NCBI GenBank assembly: GCA_937930535.1
Contig: CALGKJ010000010.1
Span: forward strand, 1-40,019
DNA from: an uncultured Clostridia bacterium
GTDB taxonomy: Bacteria > Bacillota > Clostridia > Lutisporales > Lutisporaceae
Length of the DNA stretch: 40,019 bases
Direction of reading: 5' to 3'
The position numbers and the translations under genes are program-made. Below, piece after piece: positions 4,801 to 38,679 of the stretch (its first letter is position 1; every line of letters begins with the position of its first letter). The notes beneath the pieces were generated by a model. That model worked only from the letters and a program-made list of their open reading frames with translations. It did not search any database and was not told where the DNA came from.

Positions 4801-5718
4801 CTATTCTATTACCCTTGCTACAGTTTCATTAATATTCATTATATAATCCTGTACAGCCTCAGTGTATATAAATGCCTCCTGCTCCAGCAGGCTAAGGTAT
4901 TCCTTTAGAATGGCAGCAATGTAGGTATTAGAGTGCTTTTCAATGGTACTGCTGTATATTTCCAGCATTCCATCAAAAAGCATTTCAGTATCATAGTCAA
5001 AAGCCGGCATATTATCCATACCGCCTAGGTATTCCATTAGATACCCTGTATATACCTCTTGTATCATTTCCTCTCTTGCTTTACTATCATACTTTTTTAT
5101 ATACTCTTCCGCTTTAATAATTCTCTCAATAGCTCTATCCCATGTAAGCTGTACATTATCAACGGAAACGTACTGCTCATACCGCAGACTCATTATTTCT
5201 ACATAATCCTTAAGCTCATCGGAAATATAATCATAAAAATTCTTGACTGCGCCATAATCCACTATAGCACTAAAGCAGTTTTCCTCTGCTAATATCTTAT
5301 AGCCTCCTGCTGTAAGTTCCTCCAACAGCAGCTTTATATCCTGCTCCTGCACAAGCTTTATTTTTTCCTTGTCAAAGCCCGAGCTGAAATATTTAAACAT
5401 CAGCTCCTGCATACTATCGGAATACAGTTTTTCATTATACTCATATTCTTCTGCTTCAAGTCTGCTTAATAAAGCTCCTATAATATCAGTTGCCTGCTCT
5501 TTATTTAGATTTTTAATATTAGCCGCTGCAAATTCCATTAGTTCATTTGGTTTTTTAGCTTCTTCCAGCATCTTGTTGTATGTACTAACCAGATCCTCTG
5601 GGGATACAGCCGGCTCACCATTTGCCTCCTTGGCACTGCCTAAGTCTCCGCCCTTACCGCATGCCGCCATTGATAGTATCAGTACTGCTATAATCAGTGC
5701 TGCAATGATTCTTTTCAT
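4801..5718 (-). CDS. Uncharacterised lipoprotein
   Basis: A 305-residue predicted lipoprotein. The N-terminus has a basic MKR, a hydrophobic stretch and a lipobox-like LSMAAC near residue 20, so it should be anchored on the outer face of the membrane. The rest is hydrophilic and mostly helical, with many Glu/Lys/Tyr, and shows no motif I recognise. The start at 5718 is preferred over an ATG nine bases upstream because AAAGGA lies 8 bases before it and the signal peptide then begins properly. A module-B repeat sits just upstream, in the region between this gene and the divergent TPR regulator. Confidence 0.75.
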   Translation of the reverse strand: MKRIIAALIIAVLILSMAACGKGGDLGSAKEANGEPAVSPEDLVSTYNKMLEEAKKPNELMEFAAANIKNLNKEQATDIIGALLSRLEAEEYEYNEKLYSDSMQELMFKYFSSGFDKEKIKLVQEQDIKLLLEELTAGGYKILAEENCFSAIVDYGAVKNFYDYISDELKDYVEIMSLRYEQYVSVDNVQLTWDRAIERIIKAEEYIKKYDSKAREEMIQEVYTGYLMEYLGGMDNMPAFDYDTEMLFDGMLEIYSSTIEKHSNTYIAAILKEYLSLLEQEAFIYTEAVQDYIMNINETVARVIE

Positions 5719-5806
5719 TTGTCCCATCCTTTCTGTATTCAGCTATGCAAGCTGTCATGTATAAGAATTCAAGCTTCTTTTATATCTATATAATTATATC
5801 ATATTA

Positions 5807-5863
5807 TATAGATAACCAACTCTAAAACTCAAAATTCTTTTCGCTAAGAGTTGCTAATCTATA
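5807..5863. repeat. Palindromic intergenic element, module B (copy 3)
   Basis: A 57-bp element, TATAGATAACCAACTC to GAGTTGCTAATCTATA, with imperfect inverted arms around a TCTAAAACTC...CTTTTCG core. It matches module B in the fused elements at 2048, 22374 and 32688 and the decayed copy at 14687. It lies between the divergent lipoprotein and RRNPP-type regulator genes. Confidence 0.8.
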
Positions 5864-5940
5864 GTTTATATGCATTAAAATATTAAATTTTATGTCTGCT
5901 TTTATTTGGGTTTTTTATGGTATAAAGAAGGAACATATGG

Positions 5941-5972
5941 TATAATATACATGATTTGTATTAATTGGGGTG
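5941..5972 (+). promoter_or_regulatory. Probable -10 box and ribosome site for the TPR regulator
   Basis: TATAAT (5941-5946) is a perfect -10 box; no convincing -35 box is seen 17 bp upstream. GGGGTG (5967-5972) lies 5 bases before the ATG at 5978 and fixes that start. The in-frame extension to 5906 has no ribosome site and would overlap the -10 box. Confidence 0.5.
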
Positions 5973-5977
5973 TTAAG

Positions 5978-7228
5978 ATGAAGAAGCTAACGAAGGAAGA
6001 TATTAAACTATTGGGCGAAGGACCGCAGATCAGAAAATATATACTAACACGCTATCAAACTGTAGCAGATTTTTTTGAAAAAAACAAACTAAACATAACC
6101 CTTGATTCCTTGCGAACATATCTGGCAAAAAACAAAGTATACTCCGAAACTCTAAAATGTACAATAGTCAACTGCTTTAATGTCCATTATTCGGATATCG
6201 TATTATCCCACCAAGAGCAGGCAAGAAGACTGGCTTGGGACATCAATACAAATATCAAGCTGTACAACGAAAAGGAAGACTTGGAGATTATCAGAGCAAC
6301 GGAGGTGCTTTTGGAAAAGTTTGATTTGCCAGTGGAAAAGGCAATGATGCCGAGAGCCAAGGCTATGAACTGCTATTATAGAAATGCCATAAGCCAGAGC
6401 ATAGAATGGTTTGAGCTGGCTGTACAAAGGATGGATAACCACGACTTAAATAGATTGGTACAGCTATATTACGAGCTTGCCGACGTTTATGGTCGTGAAC
6501 AAATGGATGATAATGCAACAATGTATTTTAACAAGGCAGAGCAAATAATAAAGCGAAATACAATAAAAGAAGATGTGCTTTTCCGATATTACTATTGGAG
6601 AGGCAAGTATGAAATAGACAGAAATAGAGTACTCTTTGCAAGAAGACTGTTCCAAGATGCCCTAGCTTCAACAATTAGTCTTGAGGAAACAGCCGTTGCT
6701 ATGCAGAATATCGGGCTTACCTATAAAAAGGAAGCTAAATACGAGAAAGCTATAGAAATATACGACAAGGTATTGGATATGTATGTGAGCAATGACTGTG
6801 CAAGAAAAAGTACAGTACTCAATAATAAAGCTATGGTAATGATAGAAATGCAACAATATGATGAAGCAGTAAAGCTTAGTACTAAGGCAATATCATATAT
6901 TGATAATGCTAAGGATTACAGACGATACATAATGTATAGGCAAACATATGTAAAAGCAAGATATTTGCAGGGGCACACTATGGACTGCTATAACTACTTT
7001 GATGAGCTGAAGCTTGCAAATACAAAGCTGGTAGACAAAAGCGGTCTTATTGAGGATATCAATGATTTGGCAGCAATAATAAAGGAAAAGCATTTACTTG
7101 AAAGCTTCGCTGATACGGTAATAGAAATGGCAGACAGCAAGGATATAGTATATAATAAAGAGTATATACTATATCTGAAAGCATGTGTTGTACAAATCTA
7201 CAAGAAAATCAGAAGTTTGAAGGAGTGA
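5978..7228 (+). CDS. RRNPP-type TPR transcriptional regulator (quorum-sensing receptor candidate)
   Basis: A 416-residue protein. The N-terminal 75 residues (LLGEGPQIRKYI, then VADFFEKN...ITLDSLRTYLAKNKV) look like a divergent helix-turn-helix. From about residue 110 on there are at least five TPR-like helical hairpins, for example AVAMQNIGLTYKKEAKYEKA and ARKSTVLNNKAMVMIEMQQY. This architecture, HTH plus TPR, is that of RRNPP regulators (Rap, NprR, PlcR, PrgX, Rgg, AimR), which bind a small imported peptide. Two secreted propeptide genes begin 5 bp after its stop, and the first one's ribosome site overlaps its last codons, as in receptor-peptide cassettes. A frameshifted relative of the N-terminus lies at 38516-38679. 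The DNA targets are unknown, and assignment to the superfamily rests on architecture and context. Confidence 0.75.
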   Translation: MKKLTKEDIKLLGEGPQIRKYILTRYQTVADFFEKNKLNITLDSLRTYLAKNKVYSETLKCTIVNCFNVHYSDIVLSHQEQARRLAWDINTNIKLYNEKEDLEIIRATEVLLEKFDLPVEKAMMPRAKAMNCYYRNAISQSIEWFELAVQRMDNHDLNRLVQLYYELADVYGREQMDDNATMYFNKAEQIIKRNTIKEDVLFRYYYWRGKYEIDRNRVLFARRLFQDALASTISLEETAVAMQNIGLTYKKEAKYEKAIEIYDKVLDMYVSNDCARKSTVLNNKAMVMIEMQQYDEAVKLSTKAISYIDNAKDYRRYIMYRQTYVKARYLQGHTMDCYNYFDELKLANTKLVDKSGLIEDINDLAAIIKEKHLLESFADTVIEMADSKDIVYNKEYILYLKACVVQIYKKIRSLKE

Positions 7229-7233
7229 GCTAA

Positions 7234-7371
7234 ATGAAAGCATTAAAATCCTTAATATGTGTAGTCCTAGTATCAGCATTGACACTATCCTTAGCAGTAA
7301 CAGCATTTGCAGGTGATGAAAGTGATCCTTGGGGTAAGCAGTGTATAGGAATAGTAAAAGGGGTAAAGTAA
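7234..7371 (+). CDS. Secreted signalling propeptide, copy 1
   Basis: A 45-residue precursor. The N-terminus is a classical signal peptide: MKALKS, a hydrophobic core LICVVLVSALTLSLAV, and an AFA cleavage site before Gly27. The predicted exported part is 19 residues, GDESDPWGKQCIGIVKGVK, with one Cys and one Trp. A small exported peptide encoded directly behind an RRNPP-type regulator is the Phr/PapR/NprX arrangement, so this is proposed as the precursor of the regulator's ligand. The active fragment is probably shorter; in known systems it is often the C-terminal 5-10 residues. AAGGAG overlaps the regulator's stop, with 8 bases to the ATG. An antimicrobial or structural role is possible but less likely given the context. 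Confidence 0.75.
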   Translation: MKALKSLICVVLVSALTLSLAVTAFAGDESDPWGKQCIGIVKGVK

Positions 7372-7385
7372 GAGGAGTGAGCGGA

Positions 7386-7523
7386 ATGAAAGCATTAAAA
7401 TCCTTAGTATGTGTAGTCCTAATATCAGCATTAACCTTGTCTTTAGCAGTAACAGCATTTGCTGGTAATGAAAGCGACCCTTGGGGTAAGCAGTGTATAG
7501 GGATAGTAAAAGAAGTAAAGTAG
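7386..7523 (+). CDS. Secreted signalling propeptide, copy 2
   Basis: A 45-residue precursor nearly identical to the preceding copy. The predicted mature part is GNESDPWGKQCIGIVKEVK after AFA. The two mature forms differ at D/N (second residue) and G/E (third from the end). The differences change charge but keep the DPWGKQCIGIVK core, which suggests the core is the recognised part or is otherwise constrained. AGGAG 8 bases before the ATG is the ribosome site. The stop codon lies inside the stem of the terminator that ends the three-gene operon. Confidence 0.75.
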   Translation: MKALKSLVCVVLISALTLSLAVTAFAGNESDPWGKQCIGIVKEVK

Positions 7524-7547
7524 GAGACAGTGAGTCTCCTACTTTTG
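7517..7547. terminator. Intrinsic terminator of the regulator-peptide operon
   Basis: A 12-bp perfect stem (7517-7528 with 7534-7545), a 5-nt loop and a T-run. Its AAAG/CTTT base lets it work for the convergent lipoprotein gene as well. Confidence 0.9.
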
Positions 7548-7556
7548 TGTATTATA

Positions 7557-8417
7557 TCATTGCACATTGCATTTAAAATGTCTGACGGCATCGCTTATAT
7601 CCCTCTCAAACTGATGTTTGTTAAGCCCTTTAGGTTGATTTATATAATTTATGCTATACCCTTTGATACCATAAATTATTAGTTCATTTTTCTTCTCCTC
7701 AAAAGCTACAGGATAATTAAATGCATACCCATCCTGTCGGCAAAGCCAAGCATGAGTTCCATATTGATATTCATAAAATTCTGCTATATACACATCTACA
7801 TTAAGCCATTCATCATTAATCTCTTCTCCACCCTTATAAAAGTCTTCACAAGATTCTTTTAATTTGGCTTCAAAAAGAGCTATCATTTTTTCCTTAAGTG
7901 GAGATGTGCCATAATTGGGTTTATGGGGCGGAGGAATAGTTACTGAATATCTTTCAATTATCTCATAGTTATGTGGATCACTAGGCCAGCCATATCCACC
8001 CTCACTTATTTGTCCATCACAGTATACTATTTCATTACGACATTCAAAGGTTGCAAGCCAATCCCCTACACTTGTATGTATGTATACTTTCTTTTCATAT
8101 CTATCAGCAAATATATGATTTTCATATACACGAATTTCTACATCAATAGTTTTATCTATGTAACTATCAAATTGCCTATCTGAAACATCATCCATTATTT
8201 CCACTGGATAAAACCACAAACGATAATTTATATACTCCAGTAATGCACTTTTGATTTTATCTACAGTAAAATTTTCCGGCAGCCTTTCAGCCTGCTCTAT
8301 CTGCAAGCTGCTTTCATTTTGATTTATTGTTTCGCTAGGGACATTGTCGACTTTTTTTATACATGAGCAGCATAGTATGGTAATGGCTATAATAATGAGC
8401 AATATTTTTTTATTCAA
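7557..8417 (-). CDS. Uncharacterised lipoprotein
   Basis: A 286-residue predicted lipoprotein with signal MNKKILLIIIAITILCCSC; the last Cys is the likely lipidation site. The mature part is acidic, with many aromatic residues (YGWPSDPHNYEIIERY, YQYGTHAWLCRQDGYAFNYP), and has two weakly similar halves that read like small beta-rich domains. No family is recognised. It starts at TTG, with AGAGGTG 5 bases before it. An open fragment of another gene ends 36 bases upstream, so the promoter region has probably been rearranged. It converges on the propeptide operon and shares its terminator. Confidence 0.7.
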   Translation of the reverse strand: MNKKILLIIIAITILCCSCIKKVDNVPSETINQNESSLQIEQAERLPENFTVDKIKSALLEYINYRLWFYPVEIMDDVSDRQFDSYIDKTIDVEIRVYENHIFADRYEKKVYIHTSVGDWLATFECRNEIVYCDGQISEGGYGWPSDPHNYEIIERYSVTIPPPHKPNYGTSPLKEKMIALFEAKLKESCEDFYKGGEEINDEWLNVDVYIAEFYEYQYGTHAWLCRQDGYAFNYPVAFEEKKNELIIYGIKGYSINYINQPKGLNKHQFERDISDAVRHFKCNVQ

Positions 8418-9729: not shown

Positions 9730-10407
9730 ATGAAGTACAAATTAACACCTTTAGGTCAGTTAGTTATTATATCCTTTTGTTTAACACTTGTTTTTCTAAT
9801 ATTTATAACAGTTAATAGCTTAATCAAAAACAATGACAATACAGATATTAAAGATACAGCGGGCACTCAGCAGTCCAAGGATAACAGCGACCCTATAAAA
9901 GACAATACTACGAATAACGATGCATCATCAAGCAGTAAAGACGCAAATAACAGCAGCGGCGAAACCGAAAAAGCTTCTGATGCAGATGCTGCAACCTCTG
10001 TAGATCCTTCTATAATAGAAGTAACTAACAGCAAGGGGCTAATCAGTAATATAAAGCTTAGTGTTTATTTTGGAGCAAATATATCAGTATTAGAGGAACA
10101 CTACTGCCAAGCATTAGACTTATTTGCACAGACTGCATTAACCTTAGATGGCTCGCCGATCCAGATAGAGGGCAACTGTTCAACAACACTAGACCCAAAT
10201 GACGCTGATAATAACGCTTTAAATTATGAATTGTCTTTATCTAGAGCAAAGGCTGTTTCTGATTATCTCCAGCAAAAAGGCATAGATCCCAACAGAATAC
10301 TGGTTATTGGCAATGGTTCGTCAAATCCAGTCAGGGATAATAGCACTGCCGCCAACAGAAAATATAACAGAAGAGTAGATATATTTTTTAGATCCATTGA
10401 GGACTAA
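9730..10407 (+). CDS. Membrane-anchored OmpA-family peptidoglycan-binding protein
   Basis: A 225-residue protein. Residues about 10-33 are one transmembrane helix (LVIISFCLTLVFLIFITVNS). A Ser/Asn/Asp-rich linker runs to about 95. The rest is an OmpA/MotB-type domain: IQIEGNCST, then LSLSRAKAVSDYLQQKGIDP, RILVIGNGSSNPV and AANRKYNRRVDIFF, the usual alpha-beta pattern with the conserved Asn-Arg-Arg-Val end. Such domains bind diaminopimelate-type peptidoglycan, so this protein should tether the membrane to the wall. It is not MotB by context, since no motA is near. It is the second gene of a two-gene operon and ends at a strong terminator. Confidence 0.85.
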   Translation: MKYKLTPLGQLVIISFCLTLVFLIFITVNSLIKNNDNTDIKDTAGTQQSKDNSDPIKDNTTNNDASSSSKDANNSSGETEKASDADAATSVDPSIIEVTNSKGLISNIKLSVYFGANISVLEEHYCQALDLFAQTALTLDGSPIQIEGNCSTTLDPNDADNNALNYELSLSRAKAVSDYLQQKGIDPNRILVIGNGSSNPVRDNSTAANRKYNRRVDIFFRSIED

Positions 10408-10413
10408 AGACAT

Positions 10414-10463
10414 AAAGGGCTGTATATAGTAGTGATTTAATCGCTATTATATACAGCCCTTTT
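10414..10463. terminator. Bidirectional intrinsic terminator
   Basis: A long stem begins AAAGGGCTGTATATA (10414) and pairs with TATATACAGCCCTTT (ending 10463). Wobble pairs extend it toward the loop. It serves the OmpA operon and the convergent L,D-transpeptidase gene. Confidence 0.85.
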
Positions 10464-10472
10464 ACTTTTCGT

Positions 10473-11879
10473 TTATTCTATTACTATGATTGCAGTTTTT
10501 CCGATTTCAACCCATTTATATATAAACTCCGCATGGCTGGTATAATTTCTTACACACTTATGAGAACGAGGTGTAGTTCCTATGGTAAACAGATATTCAA
10601 TAATCCCTGGATCTACCAGTTTATCGCCTTGCTTTTGAAAGACAACAGGAACTCCATGTATATACGTACCTCCGCTAAATCTTACTGCATATGGCGCATA
10701 CCCAGCTACCTCGCCGGTCTCATCATCCAAATACAAAAATCGCTCCCGAGTTTCTATAGCCATATAATATCCCAAGTCTGTAGGCAGCTTATATTTGGCG
10801 TTTTCACCAGTAGTTGCATAAATATATGATACTATACTCCAATTATCGTCAACGTACTCAAAAACAGCTTCGTTTTGGTTTTTCCTATCCACAACCACTA
10901 CCTTCTCAAGAGCTTTTATAGAATTGCTCAGACTCACATACTTTTTGGGAACATAATATTCGCCTTCAAAGCTGCTGGTTGTTATTTTATAAAAAGCCTC
11001 GGTTTTTCCTATTATATTTACCAGAACACCGTCTTGAATGTATCTAAAGTTAGCTTTTGTACTGGCACTTAGATACGCAGGTGCTGATTGATGCCTGCCG
11101 ATTCCATAGTCATCACTGGTTCTTCCCTTATGCAGCGGGGCAGTGCCCTTGCTGTTCTTATAGTTAGTTATATAAGCAGTAGTGTTTTTGTCTATAACTG
11201 ACTTTAGGCTGACTATCTCCTGATACATTTTGTCAAATTGAAATTCCCTAGGTTCAGCAAGCTTGGATGATATATAACCATACCTTACCTCTCCGTTTTC
11301 TATCCATCTTACCTTATACCAGCTATCACTCTGATACTTGTCAATATACTGACCCTTGACCTCAGCTGCAAGCTCGATTTTTTCCATGTAACCGATTTTT
11401 CCTGATACACCAGCCTCAGTGGAAGGCTTTTCTCTGATATTGGCACTGCCAGTTAAAATCAGCAGATAATTGTTATAAACCTTATATTTATCATATTTTA
11501 TGTTTTGCACTATTTCAGCAGGGATTGCAGCTTCAAAGGCTATTATAATTTCTTCTTCATTTTCATTATCTTTCTTATTGTTAGTATCTATTTGCTCACC
11601 AGTATTTTCTTCAGTTATATTATGCTCCTTAGCCAGCTCTGTAAGCTCCATATCCTCTGCCAAATCCTCTGCATTTATATTTTGTTCAATAGTTATATTC
11701 TCTGGTATCTTTACAATTTCCGCAGGATCAGGCATTGTAATATCAATATTTTCTGCTGTATCCTCCCCATTTTTCAGTTTTCCCAACTGATTGATGCCGC
11801 CGCATCCACTAAGCAATCCACTAAAAAATCCACTAAACAATACCAGTATAATCAAAAGAATACAGATTGTTTTGTTCAT
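10473..11879 (-). CDS. L,D-transpeptidase (YkuD) lipoprotein with SH3 domain
   Basis: A 468-residue predicted lipoprotein with hydrophobic signal and lipobox LLSGC near residue 26. An acidic, low-complexity spacer follows (about 40-120). Residues about 140-210 form a bacterial SH3 domain (GSANIREKPSTEAGVSGKIG, with SWYKVRW). The C-terminal 130 residues are a YkuD catalytic domain with GGTYIHGVPVVF and the nucleophile motif SHKCVRN, Cys at about 442. The usual motif is SHGC[VI]R, so Lys replaces Gly; the catalytic His and Cys are kept. It should cross-link or modify peptidoglycan outside the membrane. Start: GGTGAG 5 bases before the ATG. Confidence 0.85.
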   Translation of the reverse strand: MNKTICILLIILVLFSGFFSGLLSGCGGINQLGKLKNGEDTAENIDITMPDPAEIVKIPENITIEQNINAEDLAEDMELTELAKEHNITEENTGEQIDTNNKKDNENEEEIIIAFEAAIPAEIVQNIKYDKYKVYNNYLLILTGSANIREKPSTEAGVSGKIGYMEKIELAAEVKGQYIDKYQSDSWYKVRWIENGEVRYGYISSKLAEPREFQFDKMYQEIVSLKSVIDKNTTAYITNYKNSKGTAPLHKGRTSDDYGIGRHQSAPAYLSASTKANFRYIQDGVLVNIIGKTEAFYKITTSSFEGEYYVPKKYVSLSNSIKALEKVVVVDRKNQNEAVFEYVDDNWSIVSYIYATTGENAKYKLPTDLGYYMAIETRERFLYLDDETGEVAGYAPYAVRFSGGTYIHGVPVVFQKQGDKLVDPGIIEYLFTIGTTPRSHKCVRNYTSHAEFIYKWVEIGKTAIIVIE

Positions 11880-11988
11880 TTATCTCACCATCCATTTTTT
11901 TGATATACAAGTTATACGCATTATAAATGCAACCTTAGTATTTTATATTCGATGTTTTAGTTTTATACCCTTTTTTAGATAGTGTTTT

Positions 11989-12042
11989 TTATAAGAAAAA
12001 GAATGGCACTATCTACATAAAAAGCCATTCTTTTTCTTATAA
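11989..12042 (-). terminator. Intrinsic terminator with a competing stem
   Basis: A 19-bp perfect stem (11989-12007 with 12024-12042) lies just after the sensor-kinase stop. An alternative pairing, TAGATAGTG (11976-11984) with CACTATCTA (12007-12015), overlaps it and would be mutually exclusive. Confidence 0.8.
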
Positions 12043-12045
12043 ATT

Positions 12046-13677
12046 CTATGAGTAGATGTCTGAAAACTCAATATTAATTCTATCAATATTATCAGCACTA
12101 TTAAACTTTGAAGCCGCAAGCTCTTTACTCCCCTCATTCAGCGATATGTCTGGAAGCTCAATTATAAATTCGCTGCCTTTATTACATTCACTTATTAATC
12201 GTATGCTTCCCTGATGCAATTCAACTAAAGCCCTTACCAAGGACAATCCTATGCCGCTTCCATGGGCAGCGGCATTTAAAGCTCCATTTGCCTGCATAAA
12301 CCTTTCAAATATAGTACTTTGCTTTGCCTCGGGTATGCCTATTCCAGTATCCTTGACTGAAATTACAACCTTCTCTGGTTTATTAAATATATTCACATAT
12401 ATAGACCCTTTCTCAGGGGTGAACTTTACCGCATTAGAAAGCAGATTAAGAATTATTCTCTCAATCATGTCTGGATCACAAGCAATAATTTTTTCCTCAA
12501 CCTCTGTATCAAATACAAGCGTAATTTTTCTGCTTTCAATATAATCAATTACTGATAGTGTCACATTTTCAACAGTTTTAATAATATCACAGTTTCTAAG
12601 ATTTAGCTGAAAGTGTCTGGCATCAATTTTTGTTATATCAATAAGATTACCAACCAGCCTTATTAGCCGAAAACAATTCTGCTTTATTATTCTCATATAC
12701 TTTTTTGTTTTAGCACTGCTGACTTCATCCTTCTCACTTCGAATTATGAATTCCATCATTTGTAATGCCGAGTATATTATATTGATCGGAGTTCTAAGCT
12801 CATGAGATATGTCAGCAAAAAAATCGCTCCTGACCTTTTCATTTTCTCTTGTTTCGTCAAGCTGCCTAGCTTTCTCCTCATATAATAACCTGGCTTTAAA
12901 ACTTTCCAGCTCTATTTCCTGCCTGGCATTTATTTCCCCCATCAACAGCTCATTTGCCTTAAAAAGCTCATTAGTACGTACTTTAACAATTTGTTCAAGG
13001 TTGTTTTTGGACTTTTCCAATTCCTCAGTTTGTTTTAATATTATTTTCTGATCCTTAAATATTTTTATATATTGATCATAATTAACCTTTGAAACAAAGC
13101 ATGATAATATAAATACAAATGTAAAGTTTATTAAATTATACATCAATAGATTTGTATTCTGACCTATAAGTATGATTCTTACAACTGTGTATATGTAAGT
13201 AGACAAAAATATAATAAACCGCTCATATTCCGACACTAAATAACCGCAGGCAAGGCAAAAGCTTGCAATTATATAAGCTGATGCTTGTCCTCCTATGTAT
13301 TGTGAATTTATCGTAAGAGAAGCACTCCACAAAAGCATGGTATATATAAATACCTGATATTGCAGCTTTTTAATCTTTAAGGTCCGATTTTTAAATTTTG
13401 CAAAAAATAGATAGAATATAAGGAAAGCAAATGCTGCTGCATGAGCTCTGAACAGCTTCCCATATCCTCCTGCTGTATCCCAGCTCAGCTTGTAGTATTT
13501 TAAATCTATAAAGATTAAAAAGGCGTTTAAAATCAATAATATTACGCATACAATTTTTGTTCTTCTAAGATTTATTTCTGTTATAGCTTCTACAAATTCT
13601 TTACTATGTTTGTTAGGCATGTACTTTATATTGTTTATTACTCTTCTTAGCAAGTCATAAATAACATTATATACCAC
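12046..13677 (-). CDS. Orphan membrane sensor histidine kinase
   Basis: A 543-residue kinase. About six transmembrane helices span residues 40-197. A coiled coil follows (about 205-280), then a HisKA domain with DISHELRTPINIIYSALQ, phospho-acceptor His at about 292. The HATPase_c domain has NLLSNAVKFTPEKGSIYVNI (N box), DTGIGIP (G1) and GSGIGLSLVRALVELHQGSI (G2). It is therefore an intact kinase that senses through or within the membrane; the signal is unknown. No response regulator is adjacent. It starts at GTG with GGGAGG 9 bases before it. A terminator follows the stop, so it is transcribed alone. Confidence 0.92.
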   Translation of the reverse strand: MVYNVIYDLLRRVINNIKYMPNKHSKEFVEAITEINLRRTKIVCVILLILNAFLIFIDLKYYKLSWDTAGGYGKLFRAHAAAFAFLIFYLFFAKFKNRTLKIKKLQYQVFIYTMLLWSASLTINSQYIGGQASAYIIASFCLACGYLVSEYERFIIFLSTYIYTVVRIILIGQNTNLLMYNLINFTFVFILSCFVSKVNYDQYIKIFKDQKIILKQTEELEKSKNNLEQIVKVRTNELFKANELLMGEINARQEIELESFKARLLYEEKARQLDETRENEKVRSDFFADISHELRTPINIIYSALQMMEFIIRSEKDEVSSAKTKKYMRIIKQNCFRLIRLVGNLIDITKIDARHFQLNLRNCDIIKTVENVTLSVIDYIESRKITLVFDTEVEEKIIACDPDMIERIILNLLSNAVKFTPEKGSIYVNIFNKPEKVVISVKDTGIGIPEAKQSTIFERFMQANGALNAAAHGSGIGLSLVRALVELHQGSIRLISECNKGSEFIIELPDISLNEGSKELAASKFNSADNIDRINIEFSDIYS

Positions 13678-13871
13678 TTTTACAGCCTCCCTACTTTATA
13701 GTTAGATTATATTTTGTGTTACAGCTACTGATTTTAATAACTTAACGCCTTACAAGTTACTTATTCTATAAATTACTTAATTTTCCTGCAAAATGTTAAT
13801 AAAAATCTCAAAATATGTAATATAATACATTTTTTGAAGCCATCATTTATTAATGCTGCATCGAAAGTTAA

Positions 13872-14510
13872 CTACATAGAAGGCTCAATAGCCTTACTGC
13901 ACTTTTCTAGGAATATTCTTATATTTTCCATTTCCTCATTATATTTTTCATATGTCATTCCTCCTCTGCCCAGCCTGTCGCAGGTTGACAGTAATGCAAT
14001 TTCCTTGATAGAAACCTCTTCTGCCATTTTCTTTATCTCTGCAAAGGGCAGATCTTTTACTACGAATAATATCTGCATATGCCACCTTACCAGCTTGGAA
14101 ACCTTGAGAACAAACTCATCCTCTTTTGTAAGCTGACTTAAAAACTCTGCTGCCAGCTTTTCTCCTGCCTTATCATGATCATAAGCTGTTATCTTACCCT
14201 TGCGGACTCTAGTGGTGGGAACCTTTCCAAGATCATGGAGCAGGGCAGCCCACATCAATGCCCTTGGGTTTTTGCTGTCTTTTCTTCTCATTGCCGCATT
14301 ATCAACCACCATCATAGTATGATTCCAGACATTACCCTCAGGGTGATGCTCAGGTGACTGTTCTACTTTTATAAGATCACCCAGCATTGTAAAGGGATAT
14401 ACATCAAAGAAAATACCTGAAGGCAAAAGCTGTTTAAGATATTTTGACGGCTCAGCATCATTAACAAGATGAAAGTCAAATTCATTAAATGTTTCTGATA
14501 ATTTTTTCAA
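13872..14510 (-). CDS. HD-domain metal-dependent phosphohydrolase
   Basis: A 212-residue protein with an HD domain: NVWNHTMMVVD, MWAALLHDLGKVPTT, a YDHDKAG turn and VRWHM give the expected His, His-Asp and Asp metal ligands. The layout resembles the HD module attached to tRNA nucleotidyltransferases (CCA-adding enzymes), but no nucleotidyltransferase domain is present, so it is a stand-alone hydrolase of unknown nucleotide or phosphate ester. It starts at TTG with AGGAG 9 bases upstream. It is separated from the sensor kinase by about 190 bp in which nothing else is recognised. Confidence 0.85.
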   Translation of the reverse strand: MKKLSETFNEFDFHLVNDAEPSKYLKQLLPSGIFFDVYPFTMLGDLIKVEQSPEHHPEGNVWNHTMMVVDNAAMRRKDSKNPRALMWAALLHDLGKVPTTRVRKGKITAYDHDKAGEKLAAEFLSQLTKEDEFVLKVSKLVRWHMQILFVVKDLPFAEIKKMAEEVSIKEIALLSTCDRLGRGGMTYEKYNEEMENIRIFLEKCSKAIEPSM

Positions 14511-22293: not shown

Positions 22294-22373
22294 TTCGTCA
22301 CCTCCAGAAATAATATCATATTAAGCCTAGTACAGCTAAAGTTGATATTATACCTTATACTACTAAACCTTAT

Positions 22374-22477
22374 TATAGATAACCAACTCTAAAACTCAAA
22401 TTACTTTTCGTTAAGAGTTGCTAATCTATTTGTGAGAAACAACTGGATATATTTAATTTTGTAGTTGTTTCTCTATA
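22374..22477. repeat. Fused palindromic element, modules B+A (copy 5)
   Basis: Module B (TATAGATAACCAACTC to GAGTTGCTAATCTAT) is joined through TTGTGA to module A (GAGAAACAAC to GTTGTTTCTCTATA). Total 104 bp, equal to the copy at 32688-32791 in opposite orientation. It lies upstream of prkA. Confidence 0.9.
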
Positions 22478-24153: not shown

Positions 24154-24169
24154 TATAAATCCCCCTATT

Positions 24170-24400
24170 AAACTTAGTTTATTCATATGCTGGTTATTGC
24201 TCCCCTTATAGGTTTTTAGCTTGGTATAATCTAAGTTTTAAGCTAAAAACCTATAGCTATTTTATTATACCATAAATACATTTATTCACCAAATCATAGG
24301 GAAGCAACCATAAAGCTTAACTTATTCATATGCTGGTTATTGCTTTCCTTATAGGTTTTTAGCATGGAATACTTTAAGTTTTAAGCTAATAACCCTATAG
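24170..24400. repeat. Direct repeat of a palindromic element (module C) before modA
   Basis: Two units of about 87 bp (24170-24256 and 24313-24400, period 143 bp) share TTATTCATATGCTGGTTATT and a hairpin. In unit 1 the hairpin is a perfect 16-bp inverted repeat, TATAGGTTTTTAGCTT with AAGCTAAAAACCTATA (24207-24222 / 24240-24255). Unit 2 has an imperfect form (24350-24399). The TATA ends and about 49-bp hairpin size match the architecture of module A but not its sequence. It lies between the divergent DUF1648 gene and modA. TATAAT at 24426 is a possible modA -10 box. Confidence 0.8.
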
Positions 24401-32574: not shown

Positions 32575-32687
32575 TTAAGTCACTTCCTTCACTTTGCTTA
32601 TCATCATTTTACCCTGCAATAGAATTAATATATCATAAATATTATTATTTTTCCATGCATACAAATTTATTATTTACAATTACTTTT

Positions 32688-32791
32688 TATAGAGAAATAA
32701 CTTCAAAATTAAATTTTACCAGTTGTTTCTCACAAAGAGATTAGCAGCTCTTAACGAAAATTATTTTGAGTTTTAGAGTTGCTAATCTATA
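32688..32791. repeat. Fused palindromic element, modules A+B (copy 8)
   Basis: TATAGAGAAATAAC to GTTGTTTCTC, joined by ACAAAG to AGATTAGCAGCTC...GAGTTGCTAATCTATA. It is 104 bp, the mirror of copy 5. Its right edge contains the stop codon of the HNH gene (32787-32789). Confidence 0.9.
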
Positions 32792-38515: not shown

Positions 38516-38679
38516 TCACACTTTCTCCTGACTCAGATATGTTCTTACTGATTTTAGTGCTACTGGAAAGATCACACTATTATAAAATCCTCAAGATTTC
38601 CGTATGTTGTTTCTATGTACCTTCTAATCTGAGGCCCTTCGCCTAAAAGCTCAATGTCATTTAATTCTAGTTTTTGCAC
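38516..38679 (-). pseudogene. Decayed paralogue of the RRNPP-type TPR regulator (N-terminal fragment)
   Basis: From GTG at 38679, with GGGGGG 5 bases upstream, a 35-codon frame reads IELLGEGPQIRRYIETTYGN, closely matching IKLLGEGPQIRKYILTRYQT of the regulator at 5978. It stops at 38572. In another frame (about 38563-38516) ALKSVRTYLSQEKV matches ITLDSLRTYLAKNKV, so a frameshift or short deletion lies between them. The TPR part is not recognisable. It lies in the 751-bp stretch 38282-39032 between the MATE gene and the CRISPR array, which otherwise holds no gene. Confidence 0.75.

Follow-up and report, generated by a model that had tools for sequence, protein, structure and literature searches.

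A tandem-propeptide cassette in an uncultured Lutisporaceae bacterium is probably one channel of a large RRNPP-like peptide signalling family

Among the described systems that couple a receptor to a short exported propeptide, AloR-AloP of the Paenibacillaceae holds what has been termed the record, with 16 pairs in P. polymyxa and more than 25 in some species (PMC7425212). Rap-Phr and NprX systems include propeptides that are duplicated or stand in tandem (PMC5199041), multiple propeptide genes being attributed only to Rap in another account (PMC9765709). In phages, the aimX gene, placed after a terminator, codes for a small peptide (PMC10769878), and solventogenic Clostridium has eight and five Qsr/QssR pairs per genome (PMC7376267, PMC7206700; tabulated in PMC10075063). 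A search of the literature found no paper describing the receptor and DPxG peptide family to which the present locus belongs.

The locus, which lies in a 40,019-nucleotide stretch of contig CALGKJ010000010.1 (hereafter the window, meaning the whole stretch analysed), shares traits with each of these systems. As in AloR-AloP (PMC7425212), a receptor gene is followed by a short exported propeptide gene and many paralogous pairs share one chromosome; compared with AloR by description, the present family differs in its lineage, its DPxG core, its ~32 receptor loci and the third part that many of its cassettes carry. The combination of a TPR receptor with an exported propeptide, the occurrence of tandem copies or internal duplications in propeptides whose ligands have diverged, and the expansion within a genome are also features of Rap-Phr and NprR-NprX, and HTH-less proteins like those of Rap-Phr also exist in the present receptor family. 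Rap, however, is itself devoid of an HTH, the present peptides match no Phr-type family, and their ligand-like core sits in the middle of the exported part and not at its C-terminus. Ten paralogs and one sister-species cassette have receptor, propeptide, terminator and small ORF in this order along a single strand, which recalls the aimR-aimP-aimX order of arbitrium. The likeness to AimX is one of order only: here there is no phage context or match, the micro-ORF nearly always follows a structured-RNA-like element, and the window cassette has no third part. Qsr/QssR systems are likewise of RRNPP type, occur in Clostridia and reach several pairs per genome, but, compared by description, copies are far more numerous here, and the sources consulted on Qsr/QssR describe no third part. 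What is new here is this third part downstream in related cassettes, an acidic ORF that carries D[IVL]E[LMT]P and that, in the source genome, comes after a structured-RNA-like element.

In the window, the receptor ORF (MKKLTKEDIKLL..., 5978-7228, forward strand) encodes 416 residues, of which the N-terminal ~95 form a putative HTH and the C-terminal part a TPR superhelix. Its stop codon is separated by 5 bp from propeptide gene 1 (7234-7371, forward strand, RBS AAGGAG), whose 45 residues comprise MKALKSLICVVLVSALTLSLAVTAFA and then GDESDPWGKQCIGIVKGVK and which has homologs at ~25 loci. Propeptide gene 2, a tandem copy (7386-7523, forward strand, 45 residues), comprises MKALKSLVCVVLISALTLSLAVTAFA and then GNESDPWGKQCIGIVKEVK. 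Signal peptides were judged by composition and cleavage after AFA by eye; between the two exported parts, D/N and G/E are the sole differences. An intrinsic terminator on the same strand (7517-7545, 12-bp stem, T-rich tail, folding z-score -5.2) overlaps the stop codon of propeptide 2. The sequence-only reading had proposed this arrangement, and the ORFs, their translations and the hairpin bear it out in its coordinates, 5-bp gap, peptide lengths, two substitutions and terminator. Upstream of the receptor gene lies a promoter-like extended -10, TGGTATAAT, with a weak -35 (approximately 5931-5944, forward strand). Because the neighbours are a divergent lipoprotein-like gene (4801-5727, reverse strand) and a convergent one (7557-8417, reverse strand), the cassette looks like its own transcription unit. 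Both peptide genes are contained in a direct repeat (7221-7381 and 7373-7534) whose units are 88% identical. The peptide copies differ by six synonymous and two non-synonymous changes in the signal part and by four and two in the mature part, and since the differences are mostly synonymous, both look like genes kept by selection.

This cassette has many relatives in its own genome (4.69 Mb in 252 contigs). At a cut-off of E 1e-15 or better the receptor family yields 34 matches, two of which are pieces of another match, hence ~32 dispersed loci; C165 and the end of C151 share an overlap of 47 identical codons, and the C40 receptor is broken by a stop. Identity to the window receptor is 86% for C146, 67% for C230 and 24-36% for the remaining paralogs. 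About 25 loci, one of them (C9/C23) counted by joining two contig ends, are directly followed by one or two small exported peptides, which start -14 to +23 bp from the receptor end at nearly all of them; seven loci are without a peptide, two of these ending at contig ends. Contig breaks frequently fall within cassettes. A search of the genome with one propeptide returned 28 places. Across loci the peptides have homologous signal sequences and a common core, D-x-[S/G/D/T]-D-P-x-G. Among 30 peptides the P is invariant (30/30), as is a D, N or E before it (30/30), while S, G, D or T precedes that residue in 24 and G stands two after the P in 22; the most conserved segment of the ligand is thus this middle DxxDPxG motif and not the C-terminus. 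Co-occurrence of homologous peptides at ~25 paralogous loci rules out chance, and with adjacent peptides recurring beside the paralogs, an RRNPP-like receptor and propeptide system is the best reading. We consider it probable that the window cassette is one channel of a large, lineage-specific RRNPP-like peptide signalling family.

The tandem pair itself, which had been singled out as the remarkable feature, loses that standing: two peptide genes occur at six other loci (C146, C230, C134, C57, C72 and C68, in addition to the window), and duplicated phr and nprX genes have been described (PMC5199041, PMC9765709). The second C72 peptide is degenerate, the C68 pair continues on C65 through an inferred contig join, and C134 has a third, remnant peptide. 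Multiplication also occurs inside single peptides, with internally repeated cores at loci L051, L117 and L118. The C210 propeptide carries a DPYN core twice, and two relatives in another genus double a short motif (VDDVGL or VHDTxPD). Such repeats suggest as ligand the core that directly follows the signal sequence.

Outside the source genome the family thins out quickly. A sister species of the genus has two receptors, both with peptides, and other genera of the same taxonomic family have 0-3 receptor relatives per genome. In 391 sampled genomes of the class, with at most four candidates scored per genome, matches at E 1e-60 came only from members of that taxonomic family. The search for relatives with similar peptides in other Clostridia, suggested from the sequence alone, was thus rewarded within the taxonomic family but not in the rest of the class sample. 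No relatives of the receptor family were found in a genome-contig collection, viral contigs, plasmids or phages; the neighbours of the cassettes look chromosomal, with no sign of a phage or prophage location. From this distribution in sister species, taxonomic family and class, the expansion is confined to the source species as far as sampled.

Downstream of ten cassettes of the genome and one of the sister species, on the same strand, we found the third part. The downstream DNA of the window cassette contains neither of its components, a structured element and a micro-ORF. Comparison of downstream DNA defined an element of ~107 nt with three helices: an outer stem (AAAAAGTGATA/TATCACTTTTT), a hairpin (GGCTGGA/TCCAGCC) and a further stem (CATATACCATAAGG/CCTTATGTATATG). 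Compensatory changes occur at four pairs, a level reached by one of 500 shuffles. Copies lie at L035 4226-4333, L040 6678-6783, L044 2217-2322, L045 7171-7277, L047 4567-4675, L049 355-462, L122 526-629, L136 5477-5583, L138 3985-4089, L139 2585-2693 and L051 4099-4200, and a weaker one, with no clear micro-ORF, at L137 3129-3236. A conserved AGGAGGTG precedes the element, with no obvious start codon. The reading of the element as itself a coding ORF was rejected, as several copies break frame yet keep their base pairing. Rfam holds no family for it.

With a covariance model of the element, 12 copies were detected in the genome and, in relatives, no more than a single weak match (E 0.03). For eight of the 12, a cassette on the same strand lies upstream at a distance of at most 3 kb (C39, C40, C65, C72, two on C123, C169 and C210); given 32 cassettes, the chance of this is ~6e-14, and some copies may have been duplicated together with cassettes. 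A ninth copy, on C134, is ~10 kb downstream of its cassette on the same strand, and restriction-modification-like genes lie in between (L136 3-4297, that is G000:C134 ~10002-14296, and L034 7588-10000). On C65, an M-box (magnesium) riboswitch (L122 2538-2701, reverse strand; Rfam RF00380, 147 bits) precedes an MgtE-like gene between the propeptide and the structured element.

After the element come an RBS and an acidic micro-ORF of 25-46 residues that has no signal sequence and carries the motif D[IVL]E[LMT]P. The whole family of these ORFs, 21-46 residues long and in most cases situated downstream of cassettes, lies at L031 4324-4452, L035 4046-4165, L040 6833-6958, L044 2060-2170, L045 7336-7476, L047 4381-4515, L048 7001-7084, L049 194-298, L051 3940-4044, L122 394-477, L136 5638-5742, L138 3833-3928, L139 2742-2825, L164 ~2247 and L062 6307-6372. 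A pattern of RBS, ATG and motif has 14 matches in the genome versus four for a reversed control, and eight of the 14 are directly downstream of cassettes; the pattern misses the micro-ORFs of C123b (GTG start) and C210 (another RBS), which bring the total to ten cassettes. The C146 and C136 micro-ORFs are preceded by a related, more diverged element whose weaker hairpins fall outside the covariance model, so element and ORF go together almost always but not without exception. A micro-ORF at C61:100236 has no recognised element, and the sister species has the ORF MLHIDIELPWIIDRDSKPTGK ~336 bp beyond its C175 peptide gene, where the model makes no match ahead of the ORF. No operator common to receptor promoters and element promoters was found, an extended -10 (TGnTATAAT) alone being shared, and no larger neighbour gene was seen to recur beside cassettes as a target. 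Structured element and micro-ORF together are the best candidate for a regulated output in the related cassettes.

Divergence between receptors can be followed in the window and C146 pair. Codons 1-100 hold no amino-acid and 11 synonymous-codon differences, versus 59 and 49 in codons 101-416 (Fisher p 0.0006), and Nei-Gojobori omega values are 0 over residues 1-95 and 0.22 over the TPR part that follows. Since the first 95 codons have diverged less at synonymous sites too (0.16 versus 0.47 beyond), gene conversion may contribute to the frozen 5' half. Other close receptor pairs do not display this pattern of an identical N-terminus with a diverged TPR part. On a plain reading of the alignment, the two receptors appear to have retained a common output domain and to have diverged in the ligand domain, which may mean the same DNA targets and different ligands. 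Over 20 pairs, the correlation between TPR distance and exported-peptide distance is weak (rho 0.28, p 0.02), the partial correlation falling to 0.11 (p 0.17) when N-terminal distance is controlled for; signal sequence distance tracks the receptor closely (rho 0.78). Judged from these distances, cassettes are inherited as units, and receptor-ligand covariation does not rise above co-inheritance. The earlier proposal of an intracellular TPR receptor beside genes for exported peptide signals draws strong support from the recurrence of this arrangement at ~25 of ~32 loci, in the sister species and in other genera; the covariation being weak and gone after N-terminal control, the pairing of receptor and ligand stays presumptive.

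The TPR part of the window receptor can, on profile evidence, be taken as certain: it matches Pfam TPR_12 at E 5e-12, and Pfam TPR models match all 24 family members scanned. A profile of the receptor family matches many solved TPR proteins, including Bacillus RapF (E 3e-12), a match that reflects general TPR similarity at least in part. Of the HTH-TPR regulator originally proposed, the TPR half therefore stands; the HTH half does not find the same backing, with no Pfam HTH in the window receptor or in the 24 members, no HTH match from NCBIfam, and with an hhalign comparison of the N-terminal profile to same-genome XRE domains that picks the XRE register at a score no better than column shuffles. 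The suggested HMM check likewise returned generic TPR-type models and no match in Pfam or NCBIfam to a named RRNPP subfamily (Rap, NprR, PlcR, AimR, Rgg, ComR), curated models of which may not exist there for every subfamily. A PDB search using the N-terminal profile gave no match. AlphaFold models of the window sequence without alignment are poor (pLDDT 44 and 50), and in these low-confidence models residues 1 to ~95 are predicted helical. From this evidence a putative N-terminal HTH is likely but unproven. A receptor that is no transcription factor, in which the N-terminal ~95 residues would be a helical domain of protein-interaction or phosphatase type and the imported peptide would free a partner protein as in Rap systems, has the missing Pfam HTH in its favour, together with a low-confidence fold search of a poor model that lists Rap proteins over the full length. 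It also draws on relatives in other genera that have no N-terminal domain and of which some keep a peptide. We nevertheless think this unlikely, as an XRE-type HTH would account for the helix pattern predicted and for the register that the profile picks, and the identical first 100 residues of the window and C146 receptors beside a diverging TPR part fit a common DNA target. Among the relatives in other genera, those at L115, L117, L118, L119 and L120 are without the N-terminal ~75-80 residues and some retain a propeptide with an internally repeated core. In favour of the main reading, relatives that have a peptide but no HTH show the N-terminal domain to be a module of its own, as in NprR versus Rap. 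In several genomes a receptor relative is accompanied by one and the same pair of conserved genes (blast clusters c3 and c4), c3 resembling an rRNA methyltransferase.

Readings without peptide re-import, or without function at all, fare worse. Small exported peptides with variable tails, some containing a cysteine, that have multiplied and diverged in one genome might be bacteriocins or other extracellular effectors, with the TPR protein as cytoplasmic regulator, chaperone or immunity factor. This strikes us as very improbable, for no bacteriocin family matches above cut-off, no dedicated transporter or maturation gene recurs beside cassettes, RRNPP systems likewise place their TPR gene immediately before that of the peptide, and the DPxG core stays constant within a short mature part. 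Still less credible is the notion that tandem peptides and many cassettes are mostly decaying duplicates without current function. Decay does occur: besides the remnant C134 and degenerate C72 peptides there are broken receptor genes (C40, C61) and, in the window, a relic, interrupted by stop codons, of the N-terminal end of a further receptor gene (38560-38679, reverse strand). The window peptides, however, retain RBS, signal sequence and core beside their mostly synonymous differences, and the window receptor is intact and, by its omega values, under constraint in both parts.

Under the preferred RRNPP-like reading, the propeptides would exit via Sec and be cut by signal peptidase after A-F-A, and a further cut would release a short peptide containing the SDPWGK core. 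Opp would re-import this peptide; the genome contains four OppA-type proteins (SBP_bac_5, above cut-off). Inside the cell the peptide would bind the TPR groove of its own receptor and alter what the N-terminal domain does, this domain being most likely a divergent HTH acting on a promoter. The two tandem peptides, two residues apart, probably address one receptor, either to set the dose or as a passing stage while specificity shifts. In many cassettes the receptor would control the downstream element and micro-ORF; for the window cassette, which has no third part, the targets would lie elsewhere. More tentatively, as a possibility that we rate somewhat below even, we envision an arbitrium-like three-part chromosomal module of TPR receptor, DPxG propeptide and an output made of structured RNA and acidic micro-protein, running in ~30 channels that keep the output domain while the ligand domain changes.

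With some 30 relatives in one genome, most with a peptide gene of their own, the family would rank among the largest collections of such channels known from a single bacterium. If the reading is true, the ~25 to 32 channels match or exceed the Paenibacillus record (more than 25, PMC7425212) and far outnumber the eight of Clostridium acetobutylicum. The paralogs would then offer a natural experiment in the divergence of receptor and ligand specificity, with ~25 core-sharing pairs open to crosswise testing and, in the window and C146 receptors, a pair with an identical N-terminal domain and a diverged ligand domain. Element and acidic micro-ORF provide a concrete candidate for the controlled output, often the missing piece in such systems.

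The window also contains repeats. Just upstream of the cassette, local blastn among loci detects a half copy of a dispersed ~107-bp intergenic repeat (5801-5872, no strand assigned), which is probably not part of the signalling system; full copies lie at 2048-2155, 22370-22477 and 32687-32791. A second intergenic repeat family of ~100 bp is present at 24167-24256 and 24310-24400, and a copy of this family gives a weak match (E 0.11) to the structured-element model. Both families also surround many other loci of the genome. Near the contig end, 39027-39973 is an array of imperfect ~66-bp tandem repeats.
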